From NCBI GenBank assembly GCA_014729395.1, contig WJJZ01000006.1, positions 71,090 to 107,222 of the forward strand: a stretch of 36,133 bases of DNA, written 5' to 3'. This stretch comes from Candidatus Magasanikiibacteriota bacterium. Lineage in GTDB: Bacteria > Patescibacteriota > Patescibacteriia > Magasanikbacterales > UBA922. A program made the translations under genes and the position numbers. The notes beneath the pieces were generated by a model that worked only from the letters and a program-made list of their open reading frames with translations, was not told the DNA's origin and ran no database searches. Within the stretch, counting starts at the first letter, position 1, and the number at the start of each line of letters is the position of its first letter. Below are positions 14,261-23,153 of the stretch, in pieces.

Positions 14261-16138
14261 ATGTCATCAATTAATAAAAATACACCGCTTGTAGCCAGGA
14301 TGAGACCGAGAAATTTTTCTGAATTTGTCGGCCAAGATGATGTGGTTGGAAAGGGAAAATTGCTTAGAAAATTAGTAGAAACTGATCAGTTAACTTCTAT
14401 AATTTTTTGGGGTCCGCCGGGAGTAGGTAAAACCACCCTTGCGCATATTATAGCCAACCAGACAGAGTCTAAATTTGTTCAGCTTTCAGGTGTAACCAGT
14501 GGTAAGGCGGATTTAAAGAAAGTTATCAAAGAAGCTGAAGAATTGCTCAAGGAAAATAAACAAAGAACTGTTTTATTTATAGACGAAATTCACCGTTGGA
14601 ATAAAGCTCAACAAGATGCACTTTTGCCATATGTAGAGAAGGGGCTTGTGACTCTGATTGGTGCCACAACCGAAAATCCTTCTTTTGAGATAATCGGCGC
14701 TTTACTTTCCCGTTCACGGGTTTTTATATTAAAATATCTTGAGAGTTCAGATATAGTAAAATTAATTAGACAAGCTTTGGAAGATAAAGAGAGGGGGTTG
14801 GGGGAACATAAGATTGGGATTGAAAAAGATGCCGTGGAGTTGTTAGCTGACCTAGCAGGAGGGGATGCTAGGACTGCCTTAAACGGTTTAGAGTTAGCTT
14901 TCAAATCAAAAAGCAACCCCCTCCCAACCTCCCCCTTAAAAAGGGGGAGGAGAAAAGTTGGTTCTGTTGAAATAACTGGAGCTGATATCAAAGAAGCTCT
15001 GCAAAGAACACATTTAGTATTCGATAAAAAAGGCGAGGAATTTTATAATCTAATTTCGGCATTACATAAATCAATGCGAGGGTCCGATGCCAATGCAGCC
15101 CTGTATTGGTTGGCAAGAATGATTGAAGGCGGTGCTGACCCGTTGTATATAGCCAGAAGAGTTTTAAGATTCTCTTCAGAAGACATTGGTATGGCCAATT
15201 CGGAGGCAATGATCCAAGCCAATGCTGCTTATGATGCCTGTCATAAATTAGGCTATCCGGAATGTAGTATTCATCTGGCGCAAGCGGTAGTATATTGCGC
15301 TAAGTCAAAAAAATCGAATTTGCTTTATCGGGCTTATGAGGAAGCGGCATGGGACGCTAGACGAACATCAGAACTTGGTGTACCGCTACACCTTCGAAAT
15401 GCTCCGACTAAATTTATGAAAGAAATTAATTATGGAAAAGGTTACAAATATAATCCGGATTATGATGGCGAGGTTAAGCAGTCTTATTTGCCAGAGGAGC
15501 TTAAAGACAAAAATTATTTTAAAAAAGCTCCAACCAGGTGGACAGATTACATGAAAGAACAAAAAAAAAGAAAAAATAGTATGAAACAAAAGTTTTTACT
15601 TCACGTCTGTTGTGGTCCATGTAGTGTAGCCATATTTGAGGAATTGCAAAAGCAGTTTGATTTAACTGTTCATTTTTATAACCCAAACATTCATCCGGAA
15701 AATGAATATGAAAAACGAAAAATTGAAGTTATTAAATTGTGTAGAGAACTAAACATTTCTTTTATAGAAGAAGAGTATAATCCAAAGGAATGGTTTAAAA
15801 TGACAGAAATTTATAAGCAAGAACCCGAAGGTGGTAAACGTTGTTCGGTTTGTTTTAAAATGAGACTGGAAAAAGCTGCTAACTATGCTGCTAAAAATGA
15901 TTTTGACTATTTTGGAACAAGTCTTACAAGTGGTAGAAACAAGTATGCCAACGTGATAAATCCGATTGGTATGGTGGTTGGGAAAAAATATGGGGTTAAT
16001 TTTTTTGAGAGTGATTGGAAGAAAAAGGGCCGCCAAGAGTTGGCGACACGGTTGGTAAAAGAAAAAGGGATTTATAGACAAGATTATTGTGGATGTGTAT
16101 ATTCACTTCGCAGTTCACAGCCAACAGGCTTTGATTAA
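14261..16138 (+). CDS. RarA/MgsA AAA+ ATPase fused in frame to QueH (epoxyqueuosine reductase, DUF208)
   Basis: N-terminal RarA: PLVARMRPRNFSEFVGQ, WGPPGVGKTTLA, FIDEIHRWNKAQQDALLP. From residue 441, QueH: KFLLHVCCGPCSVAIFEEL...FYNPNIHPENEYEKRK...CSVCFKMRLEKAA...YCGCVYS. Confidence 0.92.
   Translation: MSSINKNTPLVARMRPRNFSEFVGQDDVVGKGKLLRKLVETDQLTSIIFWGPPGVGKTTLAHIIANQTESKFVQLSGVTSGKADLKKVIKEAEELLKENKQRTVLFIDEIHRWNKAQQDALLPYVEKGLVTLIGATTENPSFEIIGALLSRSRVFILKYLESSDIVKLIRQALEDKERGLGEHKIGIEKDAVELLADLAGGDARTALNGLELAFKSKSNPLPTSPLKRGRRKVGSVEITGADIKEALQRTHLVFDKKGEEFYNLISALHKSMRGSDANAALYWLARMIEGGADPLYIARRVLRFSSEDIGMANSEAMIQANAAYDACHKLGYPECSIHLAQAVVYCAKSKKSNLLYRAYEEAAWDARRTSELGVPLHLRNAPTKFMKEINYGKGYKYNPDYDGEVKQSYLPEELKDKNYFKKAPTRWTDYMKEQKKRKNSMKQKFLLHVCCGPCSVAIFEELQKQFDLTVHFYNPNIHPENEYEKRKIEVIKLCRELNISFIEEEYNPKEWFKMTEIYKQEPEGGKRCSVCFKMRLEKAANYAAKNDFDYFGTSLTSGRNKYANVINPIGMVVGKKYGVNFFESDWKKKGRQELATRLVKEKGIYRQDYCGCVYSLRSSQPTGFD
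14913..14952. repeat. In-frame palindromic repeat inside rarA
   Basis: aaccccctcccaacctcccccttaaaaagggggaggag encodes NPLPTSPLKRGR; same family as 4668-4710. Confidence 0.9.
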
Positions 16139-18728: not shown

Positions 18729-19562
18729 TTATTTTGATTTATTATCTTTTTTAAGCGTTTCATGGTGGCCTGCCACATTTTTACCAACTCCAAACCAAAG
18801 CTTACCTCCCTGTAAAACCTCTGTTGATTCAACTAATAAGTCTTTTTCATTTTTTAATAAATCATACGTAAAAGGCACATCTGTTTCTAAAATTCTTGGA
18901 ACATTTTTATCTGGTGTACGTGGTCTGGCAATATCAAAAATTAGACTGGAGTTTGTGTTTGTGGGGTTTTTAAAGACGATGAAGCTGTGATTATCTGGAA
19001 ATTCATCCACATCTTTTGCATTTTTCATACATATACCACTCACATAGGCTGATTCAACACCAACTCTTTGAAAGAGATATTGCCCTAGAGCGGCTCTTTC
19101 TCCGCATTCACTTATTCCTTTCAATTCCGATAATTTCGGTATATTCTGATTCGAATATTTTTTTTCTCTTTTAGTAGAATGTTCAAGTGTGTTTGGCACA
19201 ACCTCCAAAAGTTTGTGTATTTTTTGTTGAACTTGATAACAGAGAAAGTATGTATAAGGGTCAACATCAGAGCCGACTTTATCTAACCAACTTATTACAA
19301 GATTTTTATTTTGTTCGTACACGTTTTTAATATTTTCTTCAGTAAAACTTTCAAGTTGTTCTTCAAAAGTATCAAAATCCAATTCAAGTTTCAGAGTTAG
19401 TTCCTGGTTGTTGAATAATGACCCGCCAATAGGTAATTTTTCCCCATTGACTAATTTTTTTGCCCAAACACCACGATAGAGAGATTTTATCGCTTCGGAG
19501 TTATCCCTTTCTTTTTTGTTTTCAATAGCTGAGTTTTGGTATTCTGATTTTTGCTCTTTCAT
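18729..19562 (-). CDS. Hypothetical protein, possible transglutaminase/papain-like Cys-His-Asp domain
   Basis: ISECGERAALGQYLFQRVGVESAYVSG...NHSFIVFK...LIFDIARP spacing. Confidence 0.5.
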   Translation of the reverse strand: MKEQKSEYQNSAIENKKERDNSEAIKSLYRGVWAKKLVNGEKLPIGGSLFNNQELTLKLELDFDTFEEQLESFTEENIKNVYEQNKNLVISWLDKVGSDVDPYTYFLCYQVQQKIHKLLEVVPNTLEHSTKREKKYSNQNIPKLSELKGISECGERAALGQYLFQRVGVESAYVSGICMKNAKDVDEFPDNHSFIVFKNPTNTNSSLIFDIARPRTPDKNVPRILETDVPFTYDLLKNEKDLLVESTEVLQGGKLWFGVGKNVAGHHETLKKDNKSK

Positions 19563-19568
19563 ACAAAT

Positions 19569-19958
19569 TTATTGCAATTCTTTAATTACTTCATAAACAT
19601 TTTCCGCACAATCTTCTGGCAGATCATTAATATCGTGCCAATCCCATTCTACTATATTTTCTCCGGGCGTTACCTCACCAATTCTTTTTGTCAGATAGTG
19701 AATTAGGACGATAACCTTATCATCTTTATGGAGCATGACAGGTTTGAGAGGTTTAATAATTTCCACGTCAATACCCATTTCTTCTTTTACTTCGCGGCGA
19801 CAAGCATCTTCCAAGCTAGAGTCGAAATCTTCCACCTCACCACCGGGAAAAAACCAGGGAGTAACACCATAATCTTTTTGCTCCTTATTAAGTAAAACTT
19901 TGCCGTTTTCAATTATGACAGGTCCGGAAGCAATAATTGATCCTTCGGGTAATTTCAT
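19569..19958 (-). CDS. NUDIX hydrolase
   Basis: FPGGEVEDFDSSLEDACRREVKEEMGI NUDIX box. Confidence 0.9.
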   Translation of the reverse strand: MKLPEGSIIASGPVIIENGKVLLNKEQKDYGVTPWFFPGGEVEDFDSSLEDACRREVKEEMGIDVEIIKPLKPVMLHKDDKVIVLIHYLTKRIGEVTPGENIVEWDWHDINDLPEDCAENVYEVIKELQ

Positions 19959-20165: not shown

Positions 20166-21803
20166 TCAAATCTTTTTGACCATATAGGTACCCTGTTTTT
20201 TATAACCCAATTTTCGGTAATAATTTCGTACTCCAACTCCGGAAATGACCGCAATTTTAGTAAAGCCCGCTTTTTTAGCGATTTTTTCCGCCCGGCTAAC
20301 CAATTTTTTACCCATACCTTTGTGTTGTGTTGCTTTATTATCTTGCTTTCCTATTCCAACCAGCTGGCCATAGACATGCAACTCACGGATAAAGGCACAG
20401 TCTTTAATCTCGGGCATCAATTTATACAAGTTATCTAAGTCGGCTGAATTATCAAAGTTAGGTAGTCGTAATCTCAAAAATCCAAAAACGGTTTGCCTTT
20501 TTTTATCTTCAAAACTGATAAAATATTCATCCCCACCGACAGTTTCATATTCATCTACAAAAAGATGGGTTGCTGAAGTGTTGTTGTGCTGAAGTGTTGT
20601 TGTGCTATGTCCAACCTCCCGACAACGCAAGCACCTGCATTTTAATCCACGTTTATCCATTTCTTTTTTTAATTCTTCACGTAAATTTGTCACTAAATTT
20701 CCCGCCTTGATGTCAGTAGTGGGAATGTCGCGAATTAGTCTGGAAATTCGGCAATAACGCGGTGTATTTGTTTTTATTTCAATCAGAGCTTCAAATAATT
20801 TTTTATCGCTGTATGGTTTGTATTTGCCGGATTTATACCAATTGTATAATTTCGCGGTTTTTATCACTGTACAAGGATAAATTTTTACCATATCAGGCTT
20901 GAAGCCGGGGTCAGAAAATAACAGTTTATACATTTCAACGTCGTGATTTGCTGTGGTACCAGGTAAATCAGGCATAAAGTGTAGGTCAACTTTAAAGCCG
21001 GTCTGTCGGAGGAGGAGAATGGCTTTTTTAAATTGTTCCACTGTGTGGCCACGCCTTATTAATTTTAAAATTTTGTCGTCAGGTGCCTGTAAACCAAGTT
21101 CAATTCTGGTGCAGCCCTGTATCCTCATATCATAGATAGTCTTGGCTGTAATTGCGTCAGGTCTGGTTTCAAGTGTGAGGCCAATGATTTTGTGCTTGGC
21201 ATGTTTATCGTTATAGTTCTGTTCAATTTTTAATTGTTTTTTTAATTTTTCAATTGTTATATTGTTATATTGTTGAGTAGTTGAGGTCTTTTTTTTTCTG
21301 CTGAGATTGTTACAAGCTTTGAAAGATTCTAAAACAAACCAATATTGATATTTCAGCGGATAAGCGTTCCAGGTACCGCCTTTTACGATATATTCTATTT
21401 TATCAGTCGGGTGGCCGCTGCGCGCCAGCATCTCAATTCTTTTTTGCATTTGTCTGTATGGGTCAAATTTTAAAGCCAAAGCTCGGGCGGCAGCTGGCTC
21501 TGTTGCTAGATAGCTTTTTGGCATTTTTATTTCGTCAGGACAATATATACAATTGCCCGGACAGGGGTGGGGTTTTGTGAGAGAGGTGACAATAGCTACA
21601 CCGGAAAGAGTTCTAATATTTGCTTTACGCATAAAAAATTCAAGCTGTTTATTTGGCTCAACTCTTTTCTTTTTTACTAAATTCTGATAGGCTTTTAAGA
21701 GATTGCGGTTGGAAATTTGTGGAATTTTTAGTTTACTGCAGACTTTTCTTCTCGCATCATCAAATTCAGCCTTATTTCTCGGCTTTTTGGTAATAATTTT
21801 CAA
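20166..21803 (-). CDS. elp3: tRNA uridine(34) carboxymethylation radical SAM/GNAT enzyme Elp3
   Basis: SLTKPHPCPGNCIYCPDE, ATEPAAARALALKFDPYRQMQKRIEML, KGGTWNAYP, ETRPDAI, RIELGLQ; C-terminal GNAT HVYGQLVGIG..HKGMGKKLVSRAEKIAKKAG. Confidence 0.95.
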   Translation of the reverse strand: MKIITKKPRNKAEFDDARRKVCSKLKIPQISNRNLLKAYQNLVKKKRVEPNKQLEFFMRKANIRTLSGVAIVTSLTKPHPCPGNCIYCPDEIKMPKSYLATEPAAARALALKFDPYRQMQKRIEMLARSGHPTDKIEYIVKGGTWNAYPLKYQYWFVLESFKACNNLSRKKKTSTTQQYNNITIEKLKKQLKIEQNYNDKHAKHKIIGLTLETRPDAITAKTIYDMRIQGCTRIELGLQAPDDKILKLIRRGHTVEQFKKAILLLRQTGFKVDLHFMPDLPGTTANHDVEMYKLLFSDPGFKPDMVKIYPCTVIKTAKLYNWYKSGKYKPYSDKKLFEALIEIKTNTPRYCRISRLIRDIPTTDIKAGNLVTNLREELKKEMDKRGLKCRCLRCREVGHSTTTLQHNNTSATHLFVDEYETVGGDEYFISFEDKKRQTVFGFLRLRLPNFDNSADLDNLYKLMPEIKDCAFIRELHVYGQLVGIGKQDNKATQHKGMGKKLVSRAEKIAKKAGFTKIAVISGVGVRNYYRKLGYKKQGTYMVKKI

Positions 21804-21833
21804 AATAATTTTTTCGGGGGAGTTTATATTAAT

Positions 21834-22532
21834 ATGATTGATGATGAAAAATTAATTGAACAAAACAAACAAGTTTACGATATTATAGCTTTGCCTTTTG
21901 CCCAAACCCGCAAGTTTATTTGGGATGACTTAAAATCACTGGTTAAGTATAGCAAAGATGGCTATAGAGTGTTAGACCTGGGTTGTGGCAGTGGTAGACT
22001 TTACCAGCTTTTCGCAGATTTGTCCATTGATTATGTTGGAGTTGACCAGAGTGAAAAGCAGCTTGAAAATGCCAGAAAAAAATATCCGTCCGGTAAATTT
22101 ATTATGGCAGAAATGAGGAGTTTGCCATTTGAAGATAGTGAATTTGATGTAATATATTGCATTGCCACTTTTCATCACCTGCCAAGCAGAGTAAGTAGGT
22201 TGGATGCTTTGCGAGAAATGAAAAGAGTTTTAAAACCCGGAGGCAGAATAATTTTTACTAATTGGAATTTGTTTTCTAAGAGTGCCAAGAAAACTATAGA
22301 AAAAGGAAAGTGGAAAATAAAAGAGGGGACCGAGGCCGATTTTTTTGTACCATGGATGAATTCCGAAGGGGGTATTTTAGGAGAGAGATATTATTATGGA
22401 TTTATGCCGGAAGAGTTGAAAGAATTGTTTGAAGCTGCCGGTTTTGTTTTGGAGGAACAATATTATAGTAGGAAAGGTGAGACGAGTGATGTTGAAAAAG
22501 GGCATAATATTGTTAGTGTTGTTAGGGCTTAA
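21834..22532 (+). CDS. Class I SAM methyltransferase, Trm9/ALKBH8-like
   Basis: YDIIALPFAQTRKFIWDDL, VLDLGCGSGR, YVGVDQSEKQLENARKKY, DVIYCIATFHHLPSRVSRLDALREMKRVLKPGGRIIFTNW. Confidence 0.85.
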   Translation: MIDDEKLIEQNKQVYDIIALPFAQTRKFIWDDLKSLVKYSKDGYRVLDLGCGSGRLYQLFADLSIDYVGVDQSEKQLENARKKYPSGKFIMAEMRSLPFEDSEFDVIYCIATFHHLPSRVSRLDALREMKRVLKPGGRIIFTNWNLFSKSAKKTIEKGKWKIKEGTEADFFVPWMNSEGGILGERYYYGFMPEELKELFEAAGFVLEEQYYSRKGETSDVEKGHNIVSVVRA

Positions 22533-22535
22533 ATC

Positions 22536-23153
22536 ATGGAATTATATAAAACCAAAAATAGAAATATCCATCGACCACTTCATATTTATAGTGGTCATTG
22601 TTATTTTTTGACAGCGAGGTGTTATAAAGGTTTTAAGTATTTTAGAGGAGGGAGGAAGAAGATTTTAAAAACGAAAATAGGTGAATTATCTAAAGATATG
22701 GATATTGGTATTCTTAGTTGGGTAGTCTTGGATAATCATTATCACTTGCTATTTTTATTAAAACACCCGGAAGGGACGACGAGCGCAAGCTCGTCTGATG
22801 GCAAACTTGCGTTTGCCATCCCTTACGATAAGCGTAGAGAAAAACTAACTTGTTTTGTTCGCCGACTTCACTCTATTACTTCTAAAGAGATAAATCGACT
22901 GGATCGGACTCCCGGCCGTAAAATTTGGTACCAATATTGGGACTACTGCATCCGCGATAAGCGAGATTTCTGGACGCATTTTAACTACATACTAAAAAAT
23001 CCAATAAAGCATGGATTGGTTGGTAGTCTGATAGAAAGTTTTAGATATGAATATTCGAGTAATCCGATTTGGTTGGGTAGATTTGGTCTGGATGGAATCT
23101 ATGAAGGTTTTATAAGATATCCTGTAAGGGAGGTTGTCGTTTTTTGTTTATAA
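22536..23153 (+). CDS. REP-associated tyrosine transposase-like (Y1/IS200-like, RAYT)
   Basis: HIYSGHCYFLTARCYKG; VVLDNHYHLLFLLK (HUH); WYQYWDYCIRDKRDFWTHFNYILKNPIKHGLV. Confidence 0.88.
   Translation: MELYKTKNRNIHRPLHIYSGHCYFLTARCYKGFKYFRGGRKKILKTKIGELSKDMDIGILSWVVLDNHYHLLFLLKHPEGTTSASSSDGKLAFAIPYDKRREKLTCFVRRLHSITSKEINRLDRTPGRKIWYQYWDYCIRDKRDFWTHFNYILKNPIKHGLVGSLIESFRYEYSSNPIWLGRFGLDGIYEGFIRYPVREVVVFCL
22773..22822. repeat. Double palindrome in frame inside the RAYT gene
   Basis: GGGAC-GACGAGC-GCAA-GCTCGTC-T-GATGGCAAAC-TTGC-GTTTGCCATC-CC. Confidence 0.9.

Follow-up and report, generated by a model that had tools for sequence, protein, structure and literature searches.

A divergent Elp3 and Trm9-type methyltransferase gene pair as a predicted minimal mcm5U34 pathway in Patescibacteria

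Could an ultra-small bacterium produce the wobble nucleoside mcm5U34 with little more than two enzymes? The eukaryotic mcm5U pathway, which combines Elongator with Trm9-Trm112, is textbook knowledge. The question is raised by two head-to-head genes in the 1.01 Mb genome of a member of Candidatus Magasanikbacteria (Patescibacteria), located in a stretch of 36,133 nucleotides that corresponds to positions 71090-107222 of contig C1 and is referred to below as the window. The features concerned are the following:

20166..21803, minus strand: elp3, 545 aa, TTG start; radical SAM and acetyl-CoA (GNAT/KAT) enzyme, inferred to carboxymethylate tRNA U34
21804..21833, no strand: divergent gap of 30 bp separating the elp3 and MT start codons
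21834..22532, plus strand: Trm9-type SAM-dependent methyltransferase (MT), 232 aa, ATG start; predicted tRNA cm5U34 carboxyl O-methyltransferase

The initial annotation, made from the sequence alone, had described this locus as an Elp3 and a Trm9/ALKBH8-like methyltransferase on opposite strands, and its coordinates, strands, 30-bp gap and quoted motifs were found to be correct to the base. The protein METHYLTRANSFERASE, encoded at window positions 21834-22532 on the plus strand, is a class I methyltransferase of 232 aa. The gap contains a GGGGGAG upstream of the MT ATG, which is a possible ribosome-binding site.

The surrounding genes include a separate NUDIX gene beyond elp3 (19569-19958), and in one member of the MT family (L009:1066-2190, genome G011) a C-terminal NUDIX hydrolase domain is fused onto the Trm9-type methyltransferase. 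A REP-associated tyrosine (Y1) transposase-like gene (22536-23153; 79 bits versus a cut-off of 80) starts 3 bp past the MT gene, and a similar gene is also present downstream of the MT in genome G009 (L005). A single open reading frame of 625 aa at 14261-16138 contains a RarA/MgsA-type AAA+ ATPase and a QueH (epoxyqueuosine reductase) domain; it is possibly a fusion touching another anticodon modification. The PF07952 match at 18729-19562 is below threshold (21.7 versus a cut-off of 25 bits) and probably represents chance similarity.

At the sequence level, the minus-strand gene at 20166-21803 encodes a full-length Elp3 with every tested active-site residue, whereas its ability to form cm5U34 is inferred. 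The protein scores 552.8 bits against TIGR01211 (cut-off 350) with residues 3-545 covered, and contains the Pfam domains PF04055, PF16199 and PF00583. Its closest solved structures are ELP3-family entries (best E 1.2e-114). The initial identification as Elp3 with radical SAM plus GNAT domains was thus confirmed by TIGR01211, PF04055 and PF00583. The FeS cysteines 81, 85 and 88 are present and invariant in 110 of 110 relatives. In MinElp3, the residues E207, K302 and Y304 are needed for the formation of cm5U, an established product of Elp3 (PMC13315578), and their counterparts E212, K307 and Y309 are likewise conserved in all 110 relatives. At its N-terminus, the window Elp3 is also extended by some 60 mostly basic-type residues; an extension of this kind has been described for archaeal and eukaryotic Elp3 proteins and is missing in DmcElp3 (PMC6367351).

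For the second gene, a comparison with Trm9 versus UbiE/COQ5-type enzymes at the level of profiles and structures, as proposed in the initial annotation, identified Trm9 as the closest relative by sequence, profile and fold. A phmmer search of PDB sequences gave Yarrowia Trm9 as the best match (5cm2 chain Z, E 1.7e-16), and the same entry was again first in a PDB search with a profile of 29 MT orthologues (5cm2_Z, E 2.4e-28). Its alignment is among the few that go past the SAM-binding core and also cover the VPW and RYYH segments of the MT. AF2 modelled the MT alone with high confidence over its full length (pLDDT 96.4, pTM 0.92), and a Foldseek search with this model retrieved 5cm2 first (E 5.4e-16) with a target-normalised TM-score of 0.81, the highest among the listed matches. 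Many class I methyltransferases fit the model well in this search, and the fold by itself cannot tell them apart. The hhalign scores, with four E. coli methyltransferases as controls, decreased from Trm9 (155) to UbiE (119), BioC (93), CmoA (78) and CmoM (72). Searches of Pfam and NCBIfam produced only generic class I methyltransferase matches; the Pfam cut-off of Ubie_methyltran was passed (44.8 bits), and the UbiE/MenG equivalogs were not reached (best 55 bits, cut-offs of 158 or more). As an independent check of kinship, 72,556 plasmid records were searched (E<=1e-5). YlTrm9 had one match only, a haloarchaeal methyltransferase from Natronorubrum (WP_006068033), and the same protein was the top plasmid match of the window MT.

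In a phylogenetic tree, the Elp3-linked MTs form one clade with YlTrm9 and the haloarchaeal Trm9-like protein (support 95/90), and E. coli UbiE, BioC and CmoM and other methyltransferases fall outside it. These support values refer to the tree obtained after dropping six long-branch outgroup rows, which earlier fell among the Elp3-linked MTs. The initial annotation would have been refuted by a firm grouping of the MT with an unrelated family; instead the MT groups with Trm9, and the proposed resemblance held and reaches well past the shared fold. An identity as UbiE, BioC or CmoM was rejected on the basis of the equivalog scores, hhalign and the tree. We infer from sequence, fold and tree that the protein is very likely a Trm9-type methyltransferase, with the conversion of cm5U to mcm5U as its predicted activity.

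This assignment was examined at the level of individual residues. Mutation of R29, H115, R241, Y243 and N271 of yeast Trm9 has been reviewed to strongly lower tRNA affinity and kcat, and these residues have been interpreted as orienting cm5U34 (PMC5372719). They correspond to R26, H114, R185, Y187 and N225 of the window MT, with yeast H115 assigned by residue spacing to the first His of an HH pair. We counted these positions in two sets, 46 Elp3-linked MTs of diverse phyla versus 18 other methyltransferases. R26 is found in 46/46 versus 8/18 and R185 in 45/46 versus 4/18, whereas H114 (40/46 versus 7/18) and N225 (37/46 versus 3/18) show that the counterparts of yeast H115 and N271 are retained in 80-87% of the Elp3-linked proteins. 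The second His of the pair, H115 of the window MT (46/46 versus 8/18), and W144 (46/46 versus 2/18) are present throughout the Elp3-linked set. Y187 is found in 17 of the 46 and is confined to the window's family and its close kin. Distant Elp3-linked MTs have Val, Cys, Leu or Ile where yeast Trm9 has Y243, and because of this difference the specificity of the MT may vary.

The association of the two genes was analysed in 39 closely related genomes, including that of the window, and in a phylum-wide set of 145 evenly drawn Patescibacteria genomes in which the MT was called at 100 bits or more. Among the close genomes, the MT is present in 38 and Elp3 in 36 of 39, and one near relative (G030) has neither. 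The genes are divergent neighbours in 34 of the 36 Elp3-positive near relatives, and in the remaining two they are located on different contigs. Across the phylum, Elp3 was detected in 57/145 genomes and the MT in 39/145, and all 39 MT-positive genomes also have Elp3 (Fisher p 9e-22, without correction for relatedness among the genomes). In the 88 Elp3-less Patescibacteria genomes, this threshold yielded no MT. All 34 same-contig pairs of the phylum set are divergent, and in 30 the two genes are no more than 310 bp apart. Of the 80 top-scoring MT loci in a public genome collection, 47 also contain elp3, and all 47 pairs are divergent; they derive from numerous lineages of Patescibacteria, from Chloroflexota (Anaerolineae and others), Fermentibacteria and Dojkabacteria, with single contigs labelled Ignavibacteriales and Deltaproteobacteria. 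Thus, the adjacency of Elp3 and the MT is far above chance. The initial annotation had named adjacency unique to this genome, together with a lack of mcm5U in tRNA, as a refuting outcome, and the survey it proposed found the pair conserved in the family, order and phylum, and in other phyla. The pair on the contig labelled Ignavibacteriales (L040) nests among Patescibacteria in the tree, for which a misbinned contig or a recent transfer is a possible explanation.

The dependence is one-sided. Elp3 occurs without the MT (>=100 bits) in 18 of the 57 Elp3-positive Patescibacteria genomes and no genome has the MT without Elp3, which suggests that Elp3 can act without the MT, but not the reverse. 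The elp3 neighbourhoods of nine of these 18 genomes were searched with the MT profile, and no MT was found. A replacement methyltransferase beside elp3 was also considered for the MT-less genomes and rejected on the basis of these nine neighbourhoods; four sampled neighbours are an unrelated TP_methylase, Asn_synthase, SLOG cluster 4 and LPG_synthase_C.

One element of the initial annotation, a shared bidirectional promoter, was not supported. A consensus scan near the 30-bp gap revealed two promoter-like sites versus 1.3 expected, which is at chance level, and none inside the gap. Across 28 relatives the elp3-MT gap varies from -2 to 203 bp, and at five loci (L016, L018, L019, L020 and L023) the start codons are head-to-head, 0-3 bp apart or overlapping (CATATATG, CATATG). 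With start codons back to back, the promoters of these five pairs must be located inside the coding sequence of the partner gene, with overlapping 5' transcripts. The fixed head-to-head order may point to coordinated expression, an inferred link, but not to one promoter in the gap serving both genes.

The context of U34 modification was analysed in the same 39 genomes. MnmG, MnmE and CmoB were not found over their family cut-offs in any of them (0/39 each), and the MnmE-like matches span the GTPase part only; nine control genomes were positive for MnmG and MnmE in the same searches, and one for CmoB. In the phylum-wide set, 4/145 Patescibacteria genomes have an MnmG above the cut-off, and none of these four is Elp3-positive. 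Most of the MnmG-less genomes of this set also lack Elp3, and with MnmG nearly absent many Patescibacteria therefore appear to be without any known C5-U34 route. In contrast to these missing proteins, MnmA is present in 38/39 close relatives. The search for a Trm112-like partner, also proposed initially, gave no PF03966 match in the 39 genomes, and was positive in 8 of 14 controls including E. coli. Because of this result we use the label Trm9-type rather than Trm9-Trm112, and if a complex with Trm112 is taken as a criterion for membership in the Trm9/ALKBH8 group, this criterion is not met. Lys-UUU, Glu-UUC, Gln-UUG, Arg-UCU and Gly-UCC are each represented by a single tRNA in the host genome; these are the same five that are mcm5(s2)U targets in yeast (PMC5372719). 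Its tRNA genes (L176-L222) also include C34 partners beside the U34 tRNAs, among them Glu-CUC, Lys-CUU, Gln-CUG and Gly-CCC; their presence would be consistent with wobble being restricted by modification of U34.

We propose, with a probability of roughly 0.8, that the divergent Elp3-MT pair represents a minimal bacterial mcm5U34 pathway in ultra-small bacteria; this is a genomic prediction without nucleoside or enzyme data. In the first step, a stand-alone Elp3 would use acetyl-CoA and SAM to place a carboxymethyl group on C5 of tRNA U34, giving cm5U34, as inferred from its family and conserved catalytic residues. The 232-aa MT would then esterify the cm5U carboxylate with SAM to mcm5U34, a step inferred from the homology to Trm9, the near-invariant substrate-orienting residues and the strict dependence on Elp3. 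Since no Trm112 was detected, the prediction is that the MT does not need it for solubility or activity. In a third step, inferred from the presence of MnmA, this enzyme may add the C2 sulfur on the Lys-UUU, Glu-UUC and Gln-UUG tRNAs to give mcm5s2U34. The pair would thereby replace MnmE-MnmG, the usual route in bacteria and undetected in these genomes. The minimal pathway suggested initially is supported as a strong genomic prediction, with added support from the presence of MnmA and the failure to detect MnmG, MnmE and CmoB, and the occurrence of mcm5U in tRNA remains inferred.

Four alternative explanations were considered. The one that survives best is that the Trm9-like MT requires an undetected small activator in the role of Trm112, which remains possible. 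Eukaryotic Trm9 depends on Trm112 for solubility and activity (PMC5372719), and PF03966 is just 40 positions long, so that a divergent version could escape detection. Against this alternative are the contrast between 0/39 genomes and 8/14 controls and the confident AF2 model of the MT alone (pLDDT 96.4), although the latter is no proof of independence.

A second and unlikely alternative is that the MT uses an Elp3-derived base as its substrate but forms a product other than mcm5U, for example by methylating another position or a hydroxylated or amidated intermediate. Any Elp3-derived substrate would fit the strict dependence on Elp3, the counterpart of yeast Y243 is not conserved in distant MTs, and 18 Elp3-positive genomes manage without the MT. 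However, the counterparts of R29 and R241 are near-invariant, H115 and N271 have their counterparts in most of the family, Trm9 is closest by three methods, and the product of Elp3 is established as cm5U (PMC13315578).

It is very unlikely that the protein is a generic UbiE/COQ5-type or small-molecule methyltransferase which merely adjoins elp3. Such a view could rest on the exclusively generic Pfam and NCBIfam matches, including Ubie_methyltran above its Pfam cut-off, and on a fold common to many class I enzymes. Nevertheless, the MT is far under the UbiE equivalog cut-offs, scores higher against Trm9 than against UbiE in hhalign, is split from UbiE, BioC and CmoM in the tree (95/90), and occurs only with Elp3 and in a single orientation across phyla; no genome with the MT and quinone genes was found among the 88 Elp3-less genomes. 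Finally, a CmoM-type enzyme converting cmo5U34 to mcmo5U34, a known bacterial U34 carboxyl-methyltransferase with analogous chemistry, is all but excluded by the lowest hhalign score tried (72) and by the lack of any CmoB over the cut-off in the 39 relatives, because of which the cmo5U substrate should be absent.

The minimal mcm5U34 pathway also invites a bolder reading, which we hold to be clearly less probable than its opposite. In the best tree Trm9 is located inside the bacterial Elp3-linked group, and the AU test leaves a tree with separate groups unrejected (p 0.297). According to this reading, the Elp3-linked bacterial family would be the ancestral, Trm112-free Trm9, and the bacterial two-enzyme mcm5U pathway would predate eukaryotes; eukaryotic and archaeal Trm9 would have arisen within it, with the dependence on Trm112 added later. 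If so, mcm5U would be a native bacterial wobble modification of Patescibacteria and Chloroflexota.

If the minimal pathway itself is correct, it would account for possible U34 modification in many Patescibacteria in the absence of MnmE-MnmG, and a 'eukaryotic' nucleoside would be predicted in bacteria. A system of two proteins, or perhaps three with MnmA, would become available for studying mcm5(s2)U chemistry without the six Elongator subunits or Trm112. The MT would represent a widespread bacterial Trm9-type family, and the origin of Trm9 would become testable. According to a 2017 review, no bacterial Trm9 had been reported, and we found no report in the literature searched, which left out most subscription journals and all preprints. 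Since the eukaryotic version and bacterial Elp3 are known, an archaeal version has been predicted and bacterial Trm9 is unreported, we regard the divergent Elp3-Trm9 pair of bacteria, which lacks Trm112, as a new form of a pathway type already known, with its activity predicted.

Among bacterial systems, the MnmE-MnmG route to cmnm5U34 also acts at C5 of the wobble U34, on a comparable range of tRNAs and as a rule alongside MnmA, but it uses unrelated enzymes, produces a different side chain and is undetected in these genomes. CmoM, the E. coli tRNA cmo5U34 methyltransferase, is also a class I enzyme methylating a U34 carboxylate, whereas the similarity of the MT to it is far weaker than to Trm9 (hhalign 72 versus 155) and the substrate that CmoM needs from CmoB is not to be expected in these genomes. 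A bacterial Elp3 is already known from Dehalococcoides mccartyi (DmcElp3, PMC6367351). It is a stand-alone protein of the same family; in contrast to the window pair, no Trm9 partner has been described there, and only the window Elp3 has the N-terminal extension.

With eukaryotic Elongator (Elp3) and Trm9-Trm112 or ALKBH8-TRMT112 the pair shares the conserved Elp3 active site, the sequence kinship of the MT to Trm9, including VPW, RYYH and the residues that orient the substrate, and the same five U34 tRNAs as possible substrates. Unlike the eukaryotic pathway, the genes are bacterial and divergently paired, Elp3 is annotated alone and no Trm112 was found, and MnmA would be expected for 2-thiolation in place of Ncs6/Urm1. 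A parallel in organisation comes from archaea, for which a 2008 study predicted Elp3 with Trm9 (PMC2584109) and a 2017 review took up the idea (PMC5372719), with examples including HVO_0574/HVO_1032 of Haloferax and clustered genes in Sulfolobus solfataricus (PMC2584109, PMC5372719). Both systems combine a stand-alone Elp3 with a Trm9-like methyltransferase without Elongator subunits, gene clustering has been reported in one archaeon, and in archaea, too, the pathway is predicted and not shown. In contrast to the archaea, which mostly have Trm112 (or a fused Trm112-methyltransferase) and Ncs6-type thiolation, the bacterial pair is Trm112-free, strictly divergent and widespread.
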